NCBI GenBank assembly: GCA_021802645.1
Contig: JAJZRO010000021.1
Location: forward strand, 2,146 to 34,544
DNA from: Deltaproteobacteria bacterium
Lineage (GTDB): Bacteria > Desulfobacterota > Desulfobulbia > Desulfobulbales > Desulfurivibrionaceae
DNA length: 32,399 bases
Reading direction: 5' to 3'
Under the pieces are notes generated by a model. That model worked only from the letters and a program-made list of their open reading frames with translations. It made no database searches and was not told the DNA's origin. The position numbers were made by a program, and so were the translations under genes. Shown in pieces: positions 22,089 to 25,231 of this stretch; positions within the stretch are counted from its first letter, which is position 1; each line of letters starts with the position of its first letter.

Positions 22089-23534
22089 TTACTTGAGGCG
22101 GATGGCCACGTAACGGGTGTGGCCGTCGCGTTTCACCAGCAGGAGCAGGCTGCCCTGCCTTTGTGCCGCCTTGGCGACCTTGCTGAATTCGGCAACGTTC
22201 TTGACCGCCTGCCGGTTGGCCTCCAGGATGAGGTCGCCGCGCCGGAGCCCCTTGTCGGCGGCCGGCGAGTCGGGATCGACGTTGACCACCAGCACTCCCC
22301 GCTTGTCTTTGATGCCCAAGGAATTGGCGAGTTCAGGGGTGAGATTCTGCACACTCAGGCCGAGTTCCATGCTGGGCTGGTTGCCGTTTTCATTGGCCGC
22401 CGCCTGTTCTTCATTGAGTTTGGCAATGGTGACGGTCACCGTCCTTTCCTTGCCGCCGCGGATCAGCGCGAGGTTGGCCCGGCTGCCGATCGGGCTCTGG
22501 GCAACCAGGGTGGGCAGCGAATTGACCTGGGAGATCTCCTTGCCGTTGTAACGGACAATGATATCACCCTGCTTGATGCCGGCCTTGTCGGCCGGACCGC
22601 CCGGGGTCACCTCACCGACCAGGGCGCCGATCGGCCGGTCGAGATGGAACTGCTTGGCCAGTTCCGGGGTGACCTGCTGGATCATCACCCCGAGCCAGCC
22701 GCGCACCACCGAACCATGCTCCTTGAGCTGGCCGATGACATTCTTGGCGAGATTGACCGGGATGGCGAAGCCGATGCCGATGTTGCCGCCGCTGCGACTG
22801 TAGATCGCGGTATTGATGCCGACCATCTCGCCGTTCAGGTTGAAGAGCGGCCCACCGGAGTTGCCGGGGTTGATGGAGGCGTCGGTCTGAATGAAGTTTT
22901 CATAGGGGCCGCTGCCCAGCGAACGGCCTTTACCGCTGACGATGCCGGCGGTGACCGTCTGCTCGAAGCCGAAGGGGTTGCCGATGGCAAGCACCCAGTC
23001 GCCTACCCGGAGCTTTTCCGAATCGCCGAAGGTGACGGCCGGCAGCGACCTTTTGGGATTGATCTTGATCAGGGCCAGGTCGGTCTTGGGGTCGCGGCCG
23101 ATGAGCTTGGCATCATACTCCTCGTTGTCGGCCAGGCGGACGCTGATGGAGTCGGCATTTTCCACCACATGGTTATTGGTGACGATATAGCCGTCCGGCG
23201 ACGAGATGACGCCGGAACCGAGGCTGGTGCGCTTCAGGTCCCGTGGTGCCTCCTGCTGCTGGCCGAAGGGCGACGGCCCGCCGAAGAAGTGGCGGAAGAG
23301 TTCCGGCATCTCGTCGTCCTGGAAGAAGAAGTCGTGGGGCGAGCGCTGCATTTTCACGGTTTGGGTGGTGTAGATGTTCACGACCGTGGGGCTTAACCGT
23401 TCGGCGAGATCGGCGAACGAGTCAGGGGCGCCGGCCATGGAGCGCGCGGCGGCCGGACCGCCAAAGCCCAAAAGCATCACGAGAACGAGGGCTGCCGCGA
23501 CACGCAGGGTGGACATGGAGAATGAGGTCTGCAT
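22089..23534 (-). CDS. Do-family periplasmic serine protease (HtrA/DegP/MucD)
   Basis: A 481-residue Do-type protease/chaperone that degrades misfolded envelope proteins. It has a signal peptide (about 1-31), a trypsin-like domain with catalytic triad H122 (TNNHVVENAD), D152 (KTDLALIKI) and S226 (GNSGGPLF), and two PDZ domains (about 278-370 and 385-475; RGWLGVMIQQVTPELAKQF, GLSVQNLTPELANSLG). The start at 23534 has AAGGAG about 9 nt upstream and begins a proper signal sequence; the longer frame to 23585 does not. It lies 297 bp downstream of the anti-sigma gene on the same strand, in the familiar rpoE-rseA-mucD/degP order, and has its own ECF-type and sigma-70-type promoters. Confidence 0.96.
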   Translation of the reverse strand: MQTSFSMSTLRVAAALVLVMLLGFGGPAAARSMAGAPDSFADLAERLSPTVVNIYTTQTVKMQRSPHDFFFQDDEMPELFRHFFGGPSPFGQQQEAPRDLKRTSLGSGVISSPDGYIVTNNHVVENADSISVRLADNEEYDAKLIGRDPKTDLALIKINPKRSLPAVTFGDSEKLRVGDWVLAIGNPFGFEQTVTAGIVSGKGRSLGSGPYENFIQTDASINPGNSGGPLFNLNGEMVGINTAIYSRSGGNIGIGFAIPVNLAKNVIGQLKEHGSVVRGWLGVMIQQVTPELAKQFHLDRPIGALVGEVTPGGPADKAGIKQGDIIVRYNGKEISQVNSLPTLVAQSPIGSRANLALIRGGKERTVTVTIAKLNEEQAAANENGNQPSMELGLSVQNLTPELANSLGIKDKRGVLVVNVDPDSPAADKGLRRGDLILEANRQAVKNVAEFSKVAKAAQRQGSLLLLVKRDGHTRYVAIRLK

Positions 23535-23626: not shown

Positions 23627-23654
23627 ATGATAGGACGGGTGAAAACTTTGTCAA
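23627..23654 (-). promoter_or_regulatory. Sigma-70-type promoter for htrA
   Basis: On minus, a perfect TTGACA (23654-23649), a 16-bp spacer and TATCAT (23632-23627, 5 of 6). The start near 23620 would give a leader of about 86 nt to the ATG at 23534. Confidence 0.65.
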
Positions 23655-23779
23655 GCATCGCCTTGCGGCGCAGAGAGAAAGATGGGACCGCCAGGCCGGG
23701 CAAGCAAGGCGGTCCCCAGGGGACCCTTCCGGGAAGAAGGGGGAGGAAGAGAGGATGCGAATTGCTCGCATCTGAGGAA

Positions 23780-23807
23780 AAAGACCATACTGATCCCAAA
23801 AAGTTCC
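23780..23807 (-). promoter_or_regulatory. ECF (sigma-E-type) promoter upstream of htrA
   Basis: On minus, GGAACTT (23807-23801), 16 bp, TCTTT (23784-23780), identical in both hexamers and spacing to the element before the sigma gene at 25204-25231. GGAACTT is the classic -35 of RpoE-type sigma factors. The start near 23773 gives a 240-nt leader that opens with a GATGCGA/TCGCATC hairpin (23754-23772) and contains the palindrome GGTCCCC-A-GGGGACC (23711-23725). Confidence 0.65.
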
Positions 23808-23831
23808 ATGAAAAAAAAGAGGGGCGCATTC

Positions 23832-24596
23832 TTATTGGAGACGGATGGCCACCAGCAGGAGTTTCTTGTGGCGCGGGCCGCCGGGGGGAACGGTTTCCTG
23901 CGGAAAGACCACGGCCTGCCGATTGCCCAGCGCCTCGCCCAGGAGCGGGAGGTCGTCGGGGTGGAGACGGAGCATGAGTCCGTGGGGGCTGACGACATGA
24001 GGGAAGAGATGGCGGTCGGTCAAGGCCTGTTGCAGCAGGAGAATATCTTGGGGGGTTTCGGCCCGCACGGTGATGAAGACATCCGGATGGACGACCTCCC
24101 AATCCGCCGCCGAGGGTGGATGGGCCGCCATGACCTGGGGGAGCGGCACGCGGAAATCATTGGTCACGGTGGTCAAACGGGAACCCGGAATAATCAAGGG
24201 GGTCGTGTGACGGATGACCTGCTGGGTGGCCTGGTCAGGTACCCCTACAGGCGCAAGATGCATCTTGAAGAAGAGGCCTGCCGCCATGGCCACCACCACG
24301 GTGGCGGTGGCGGCGGATAGCGACATGGAAAAGTCGAACCGGCTGGCAAGGTCGCGGAGACGGATCCAGAAGGCAGGGCGGTGCAGTTTGGCCTGAATGC
24401 CCGGCAACAGGTCGGACGGCGGCTGCTCGTGGCGCAGGTTGGCAATATGGCCCAGAGTCAGGGAGAAGAGGCGCCATTCTCTGGCACAGTGCGGGCAGGC
24501 GGCAAGATGGTCCTCCAGCCGTTGCCGGTCGCTGGCGGTCAGCTCCTGGTCGAGGTAGGGCGTAAATCGCGCCTGATGTTCGTCGCATTCCTTCAT
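23832..24596 (-). CDS. Zinc-finger anti-sigma factor (ZAS-type, RseA-like role)
   Basis: A 254-residue single-pass membrane protein. The N-terminal cytoplasmic zinc-binding anti-sigma domain has the H-x3-C-x2-C motif (DHLAACPHC; H30, C34, C37) after CDEHQARFTPYLDQELTASDR. One membrane helix at about 92-110 (LSAATATVVVAMAAGLFF) leads to a periplasmic domain of about 140 residues with no family I recognise. It should hold the upstream ECF sigma factor inactive until envelope stress triggers its proteolysis. The ATG at 24596 lies 5 bp after the sigma gene stop, with GGAG 8 nt upstream inside the sigma gene; the frame stays open further upstream only as a shadow of the sigma gene. Confidence 0.9.
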   Translation of the reverse strand: MKECDEHQARFTPYLDQELTASDRQRLEDHLAACPHCAREWRLFSLTLGHIANLRHEQPPSDLLPGIQAKLHRPAFWIRLRDLASRFDFSMSLSAATATVVVAMAAGLFFKMHLAPVGVPDQATQQVIRHTTPLIIPGSRLTTVTNDFRVPLPQVMAAHPPSAADWEVVHPDVFITVRAETPQDILLLQQALTDRHLFPHVVSPHGLMLRLHPDDLPLLGEALGNRQAVVFPQETVPPGGPRHKKLLLVAIRLQ

Positions 24597-24601
24597 CGTC
24601 G

Positions 24602-25165
24602 TTACTCCAGCATCTTCTTCAGTCGGTCTTTCAGGGCCAATCGCGCCCGGTTCAGCTTTGATTTGACCGTGCCCAACGGGATATCGAGAATGGCGCTGAT
24701 CTCCTCGTAAGAGAGCTCCTGGAGATCGCGCAGCAGCAGAATCTCCTTCTCCGTGGGCGGCATGGCGGCAATGGCGTTGCGTACCACCGCATTCACATCC
24801 CGGCGCTCCAGTTGCCGTTCCGGGGTGTCGTCCTGGCTGAGTTGAATCGGGTTGTCCGGATCGTCCAGCGACAGATTGCTGAAAAAACCCCGGCGCTTGA
24901 GGCGCTTGTACCGGTTGCGACAATGGTTGAGGGCCAGTTGGTACAACCAGGCGCCGAACTTGGCGTCATCGCGCAGATGGCCGAGGGAACGGTAGGCGGT
25001 GACAAAGATATCCTGGGTGAGATCTTTGGCCTCTTCCTCGTCCTTGACATAGGTGCGCGTCAGGTTCCATATCCTGGCCTGGTAGATCCGGACCAGTTGG
25101 TTGAAGGCCTGTTCTTCGCCTTGGCGCAGGGCGCGGACCAGGCCCGCGACATCGTGTTCGGTCAT
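24602..25165 (-). CDS. ECF RNA polymerase sigma factor, RpoE-like
   Basis: A 187-residue group 4 sigma factor. Region 2 spans about 12-90, with EEAKDLTQDIFVTAYRSL (2.2), FGAWLYQLALNHCRNRYKRLKRR (2.3-2.4), and region 4 spans about 128-185 with MPPTEKEILLLRDLQELSYEEISAILDIPLGTVKSKLNRAR, a helix-turn-helix for the -35. There is no sigma 1.1 or region 3. The linked zinc-finger anti-sigma and HtrA protease identify it as an envelope-stress sigma. Its own promoter (25204-25231) has the GGAACTT-N16-TCTTT sequence also found before htrA, so it probably activates itself. It is divergent from the PTS cluster. Confidence 0.95.
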   Translation of the reverse strand: MTEHDVAGLVRALRQGEEQAFNQLVRIYQARIWNLTRTYVKDEEEAKDLTQDIFVTAYRSLGHLRDDAKFGAWLYQLALNHCRNRYKRLKRRGFFSNLSLDDPDNPIQLSQDDTPERQLERRDVNAVVRNAIAAMPPTEKEILLLRDLQELSYEEISAILDIPLGTVKSKLNRARLALKDRLKKMLE

Positions 25166-25203
25166 CGGCTCATGCGAGTTAAGTCCGATGGCGTTTCTTC
25201 CTT

Positions 25204-25231
25204 AAAGACAGGAAGGAGCGAAAAAAGTTCC
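25204..25231 (-). promoter_or_regulatory. ECF (sigma-E-type) autoregulatory promoter
   Basis: On minus, GGAACTT (25231-25225), a 16-bp spacer, TCTTT (25208-25204). The transcript would start near 25197, 32 nt before the sigma ATG at 25165. The same motif with the same spacing precedes htrA. In the remainder of the 302-bp divergent gap (to 25467) I see no further clear element; a candidate -35/-10 for the plus strand near 25370-25396 (TTGCGC, N18, TACCCT) is too weak to call. Confidence 0.7.

Follow-up and report, generated by a model that had tools for sequence, protein, structure and literature searches.

The window, that is, the whole stretch of DNA analysed here, comprises 32,399 nucleotides from a deltaproteobacterium of the Desulfurivibrionaceae. 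Its minus strand carries, in this order, a promoter of the ECF (sigma-E) type that we designate P1, a gene for an RpoE-like ECF sigma factor, a gene for a zf-HC2 anti-sigma factor, a second promoter of the same type, P2, and htrA (Table 1). The best NCBIfam match of the sigma factor is to TIGR02939 (RpoE), with a score of 148.7 bits that falls under the equivalog cut-off of 236.15. Relatives of this protein are present in 48 of 58 genomes, the closest named one being 94% identical and encoded by the MAG SKS1.bin83 'Deltaproteobacteria bacterium' (L071); Desulfurivibrio sp. AMeS2 (L073) is also among the family members, and the anti-sigma gene adjoins the sigma gene in relatives. With a candidate autoregulatory promoter ahead of it and an anti-sigma gene next to it, the operon has the predicted organisation of an RpoE-type system.

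Table 1. Features of the sigma factor locus, in window coordinates.
Feature	Position	Strand	Evidence
P1, ECF (sigma-E-type) promoter 5' of the sigma gene	25204..25231	-	Exact match to GGAACTT-N16-TCTTT
RpoE-like ECF sigma factor, 187 aa	24602..25165	-	Pfam Sigma70_r2 and r4_2
Anti-sigma factor with N-terminal zf-HC2 zinc finger	23832..24596	-	PF13490, 36.8 bits
P2, ECF (sigma-E-type) promoter of the predicted small RNA	23780..23807	-	Exact match to GGAACTT-N16-TCTTT
sRNA1, predicted noncoding RNA of ~99 nt (ends approximate)	23675..23773	-	Fold, covariance model and covariation
sRNA1 stem 1, GATGCGA-GCAAT-TCGCATC	23754..23772	-	Two-sided changes in 4/5 model pairs
sRNA1 unpaired pyrimidine linker with CCUCC (anti-Shine-Dalgarno-like)	23742..23753	-	Predicted fold and CCUCC count
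sRNA1 stem 2, CCCUUCU-UCCC-GGAAGGG	23724..23741	-	Two-sided changes in 6/7 model pairs
sRNA1 terminator hairpin, GGGACCGCC...GGCGGUCCC, with weak U-tract AUCUUUCUCUC	23673..23716	-	Fold and covariation; U-tract by reading
Sigma-70-type promoter TTGACA-N16-TATCAT, proposed main promoter of htrA	23627..23654	-	11/12 consensus
HtrA/DegP-type (Do family) protease with two PDZ domains	22089..23534	-	TIGR02037, 557 bits, above cut-off

Promoters P1 and P2

Two exact copies of the pattern GGAACTT-N16-TCTTT were found in the window, both on the minus strand, against a chance expectation of 0.01, and two copies occurred in none of 100 shuffled sequences; GGAACTT by itself is found three times, equal to expectation. 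The two copies are P1, which reads GGAACTTTTTTCGCTCCTTCCTGTCTTT, and P2, which reads GGAACTTTTTGGGATCAGTATGGTCTTT, and an earlier sequence-only reading of this DNA had correctly identified both. That reading placed the sigma gene 32 nt from P1, a distance that we correct to 39 nt as counted to the sigma ATG (25165). P2 follows the anti-sigma stop codon at a distance of 25 nt and precedes the htrA ATG (23534) by about 245 nt, an interval occupied by a hairpin that resembles a terminator and by a promoter of the sigma-70 type. When the spacer between GGAACTT and TCTTT was allowed to range from 15 to 17, one extra match was obtained in the whole genome, at C38:47830, within a predicted CDS.

P1 is retained 5' of the sigma gene in most members of the family (Desulfurivibrio relatives, Desulfobulbales), which supports the earlier proposal of an autoregulated RpoE-like sigma factor, and in most of the family P2 is retained 3' of the anti-sigma gene and immediately 5' of the RNA described below. 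The consensus over 64 family-wide sites is GGAACYTTT-N-TGTCTTW with a spacer of 15 or 16; it is partly fixed by the search pattern, which did not impose the T that follows GGAACYTT (92%) or the one that precedes GTC (73%). The corresponding sigma-E elements of Salmonella rybB and micA are GGAACTTTT and GTCAAA (PMC1804206). The suggestion of a -10 preference specific to this lineage is borne out insofar as TGTCTTW is found lineage-wide, but the contrast with Enterobacteria is smaller than claimed because the GTC core is common to the Salmonella sites and to TGTCTTW.

Two further features accompany the 5' end of the sigma operon. A perfect 9-bp inverted repeat, CCGATGGCG/CGCCATCGG, lies around P1 (25185-25239, minus strand), its 37-nt interior holding most of the promoter, and a second, imperfect inverted repeat (25192-25220) encloses the P1 -10 element; these repeats could be a regulator binding site or form a hairpin at the 5' end of the sigma mRNA. 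In one genus (L004-L023), the leader of the sigma mRNA has no obvious Shine-Dalgarno sequence and contains a conserved small hairpin just 5' of the start codon, for example TTGCCC...GGGGCAA, making translational control possible.

The region between the anti-sigma gene and htrA

The sequence that follows P2, here called sRNA1, has a predicted start at about 23773 and is predicted to fold into three hairpins, with z = -2.9, or z = -4.3 for the 99-nt version. The third hairpin, GGGACCGCC/GGCGGTCCC, is followed by ATCTTTCTCTC; it is absent from the terminator-scan list for the window, and no Rfam family was matched in the window at the gathering threshold. The architecture of hairpin, pyrimidine-rich linker, hairpin and terminator recurs after P2 across most of the family, and the T-run of the terminator is present in most relatives, the U-tract being weak in the genus of the window itself. 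Of the cells of a 21-sequence structural alignment, itself fitted to the structure, 96.9% are paired. Two-sided changes were observed in 16 of the 25 sRNA1 base pairs; shuffles gave 5.8 +/- 1.7 such pairs and slid controls 3-7. A first covariance model, built from 11 sequences of a single genus, detects the RNA outside that genus as well: in a search space of about 100 kb, matches from other genera and families have E values of 1e-6 to 1e-16 and those from three order-level relatives E ~1e-6, and all of them are at the sigma locus. A second model, applied to 194 genomes of the order, gave single strong matches per genome (E < 1e-5 in about 27 genomes); those examined were located at the sigma locus, save for one at the adk locus. 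Searching 297 genomes of the phylum (R2) gave nothing convincing outside the order, where three marginal matches were examined and found to be without the architecture.

The possibility that sRNA1 encodes a small protein was rejected: its linker varies in length by non-multiples of three among otherwise near-identical sequences, which breaks the frame between close relatives, so that sRNA1 is not a conserved ORF. It is missing between the anti-sigma gene and htrA in L014, L021 and L025-L028; in L015 the linker, stem 2 and terminator are retained, and P2 and stem 1 are seemingly lost. By its fold and conservation, sRNA1 appears to be a discrete, terminated, noncoding RNA, and a sigma-E-type promoter stands immediately 5' of it.

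The sequence-only reading had assigned P2 to htrA, and among the classic targets of sigma-E is degP. P2 might accordingly be a plain sigma-E promoter of htrA, with the intervening region as an ordinary 5' leader, an explanation that fits the position of htrA as the next gene in most genomes and the weak U-tract here, which makes read-through possible. We nevertheless regard it as unlikely. P2 and htrA are separated by a conserved terminator-like hairpin and by a TTGACA promoter, the RNA shows covariation, and equivalent RNAs occur elsewhere in the absence of htrA. Furthermore, in G053 the sigma gene, anti-sigma gene, P2 and RNA are all present and the next gene is one other than htrA, indicating that sRNA1 is not simply an htrA leader. 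A TTGAC[AT] element lies 3' of the terminator and 5' of htrA in 19 of 19 relatives scanned, and is retained in L021 and L025, both of which are without sRNA1. Given the conserved RNA that follows P2 and the separate, conserved TTGACA promoter of htrA, the most likely product of P2 is a small RNA dependent on sigma-E, and htrA would be reached at most by read-through, which the weak U-tract in the genus of the window makes possible; to that extent the assignment of P2 to htrA may hold in part.

Synteny with htrA in most genomes, together with a hairpin that ends in a terminator, would also be expected if the conserved RNA were a cis-acting attenuator, a regulated terminator that sets the supply of P2 transcript to htrA. 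This too is improbable, given that a non-systematic look revealed no conserved antiterminator, that a promoter lies between the hairpin and htrA, that G053 is without htrA at this place, and that paralogous RNAs with promoters of their own are found at unrelated loci. It is very hard to credit that the structure merely closes the sigma/anti-sigma operon, as its 3' end and terminator, and is otherwise functionless: it lies just 3' of the anti-sigma gene and probably ends that transcript too, but relatives retain a sigma-E promoter for the RNA in the interval that follows the anti-sigma stop codon, and conservation extends to stems 1 and 2 and to the pyrimidine linker, though the last stem suffices for termination. 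The interpretation that we favour, and consider probable on the sequence features described, is of a sigma-E-type envelope-stress module in which P2 makes a noncoding RNA of about 100 nt that ends at the hairpin before htrA.

Other sites of the same promoter type

A search of the whole genome with GGAACYTT-N13-16-GTC returned seven matches, namely P1, P2, a site ahead of htpX, two intergenic sites and two sites within CDS. This is not above the reversed control (7 vs 8 and 7 vs 15), and the same is true of family-wide pattern counts taken alone; membership of the regulon accordingly rests on intergenic context and conservation. The sequence-only reading had described the regulon as local, which is contradicted by the presence of the same promoter at htpX and at two more sRNA-like loci elsewhere in the genome. 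The htpX site, GGAACCTTTTCAGGCACCGGATGTCTTT, is positioned some 45 nt before the ATG; the same promoter type directly 5' of this membrane metalloprotease gene is seen at L070 (G000:C37:54600) and L148 (G001).

The two intergenic sites are identical promoters, one located at C13:965-992, which is about 1.2 kb beyond the window, and the other at C34:61137-61164; each leads into an RNA of about 90 nt that consists of a hairpin, a CU-rich loop and linker, and a long terminator stem, with a fold z of about -7.6. The C13 element (G000:C13:868-992, L064), on the upstream side of the window, is flanked by two chemotaxis-receptor genes. Over the promoter and the first ~25 nt it matches the hsp20-linked copy on contig C34 (L069, L155) without a difference. 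Across the family, comparable RNAs adjoin hsp20/adk or a chemotaxis-receptor (MCP) gene. Tandem pairs of sRNA-like elements, about 158 nt apart and each with its own ECF promoter, were observed at the hsp20 locus in G005 (L112/L145) and G010 (L114/L146). In pairs of paralogous RNAs the single strand UUUACCCUCUCUCCUUCC is invariant, and the terminators differ yet remain paired, with two-sided changes in 17 cells (5 sequences). A variant ECF-like site, GGAACCTATCCCAATTTTCATGGTCTTT, occurs just 3' of a nitrilase-like ORF at G000:C4:78363 (L209).

Pyrimidine-rich stretches and a model for RNA action

Every RNA of the set contains pyrimidine runs, the longest of at least 11 nt. CCUCC is found in 15 of 18 RNAs, compared with 7.25 +/- 1.96 in shuffles, a count reached by none of 1000 shuffles, and is mostly unpaired in the predicted folds, which suggests that the CCUCC and CU-rich stretches may pair with Shine-Dalgarno regions. 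A search for near-perfect seed complements in G005 and in the genome of the window gave no clear outer-membrane targets and no pattern; the matches fell in a few start regions, among them those of an HDOD-like protein and a YeiH-like membrane protein (named by eye). As these searches gave no targets, we infer repression in trans from the anatomy of the RNAs and from precedent. Hfq was found in none of 43 genomes and ProQ in none of 28, with positive controls working in both cases, so that pairing by these RNAs would be unaided or would proceed via another protein.

Several known RNAs resemble the set described here. Like MicA and RybB (PMC1804206), these are small intergenic RNAs with conserved sigma-E promoters, and the regulatory logic is probably similar, MicA and RybB being the silencing arm of the envelope-stress sigma factor. 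However, we saw no sequence relation to MicA or RybB, which are Hfq-bound seed RNAs, whereas those described here have three stems and CU-rich loops and belong to a lineage in which neither Hfq nor ProQ was found. The alpha-r14/NfeR1 ('cuckoo', RF02344) sRNAs are about 120 nt long, with three hairpins that each expose CCUCCUCCC and stems that are variable, occur in multiple copies and are Hfq-independent (PMC10746234). They share with our set a CCUCCUCCC-like or CCUCC-type anti-Shine-Dalgarno motif in unpaired regions and variable stems, but come from a different phylum, and the RNAs described here have sigma-E-type promoters. For the second RNA class the Rfam alpha-r14 model gave 37.9 and 29.7 bits, short of the gathering score of 58.8, and it matched neither sRNA1 nor anything else in the window; we do not claim that these RNAs are members of alpha-r14. 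AbcR1 and AbcR2 likewise have three stem loops, two CU-rich anti-Shine-Dalgarno motifs and tandem copies (PMC7143759), but they are Hfq-binding and alphaproteobacterial and have other promoters. RepG of Helicobacter pylori acts in trans where both Hfq and ProQ are absent (PMC8322730), but is a single sRNA, aimed at a G-repeat and outside any sigma-E regulon. No sRNAs in Desulfurivibrio, nor sigma-E sRNAs in Deltaproteobacteria, were reported in the literature searched, which included few subscription papers.

According to the model that we propose, the RpoE-like sigma factor would be restrained by its zf-HC2 anti-sigma factor and would transcribe its own operon from P1 and the noncoding RNA from P2 as far as the hairpin 5' of htrA. 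htrA itself would be expressed from its sigma-70-type promoter, with possible added sigma-E read-through in the genus of the window. sRNA1 would be one of three sigma-E-dependent sRNAs in the genome that expose pyrimidine-rich, anti-Shine-Dalgarno-like stretches, and these probably bind purine-rich ribosome-binding sites in trans and, under envelope stress, reduce the translation of particular mRNAs. MicA and RybB act likewise in Enterobacteria, though here the process would do without Hfq or ProQ. The model is built on observed features, namely the promoters, a conserved RNA structure, gene order, further sRNA-like loci and the lack of detectable Hfq or ProQ; from these we infer transcription by this sigma factor, the RNA ends, base-pairing, targets and the direction of regulation.

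In Enterobacteria, envelope-stress sigma factors silence genes through sRNAs in an Hfq-dependent manner. Whether the Desulfobulbales counterpart has independently evolved to act largely through anti-Shine-Dalgarno sRNAs without Hfq or ProQ is, in our estimation, evenly poised; if so, at least three of the five clear sigma promoters in the genome would drive RNAs rather than proteins. The analysis provides a defined group of RNAs that Rfam does not contain, built on anti-Shine-Dalgarno motifs like those of rhizobia, with directly testable promoters, and it raises the question of how targets are chosen by seeds that look so general. If the model holds in the sulfur-cycling Desulfobulbales, it would suggest that the wiring of sigma-E to sRNAs arises repeatedly, and without need of Hfq or ProQ.
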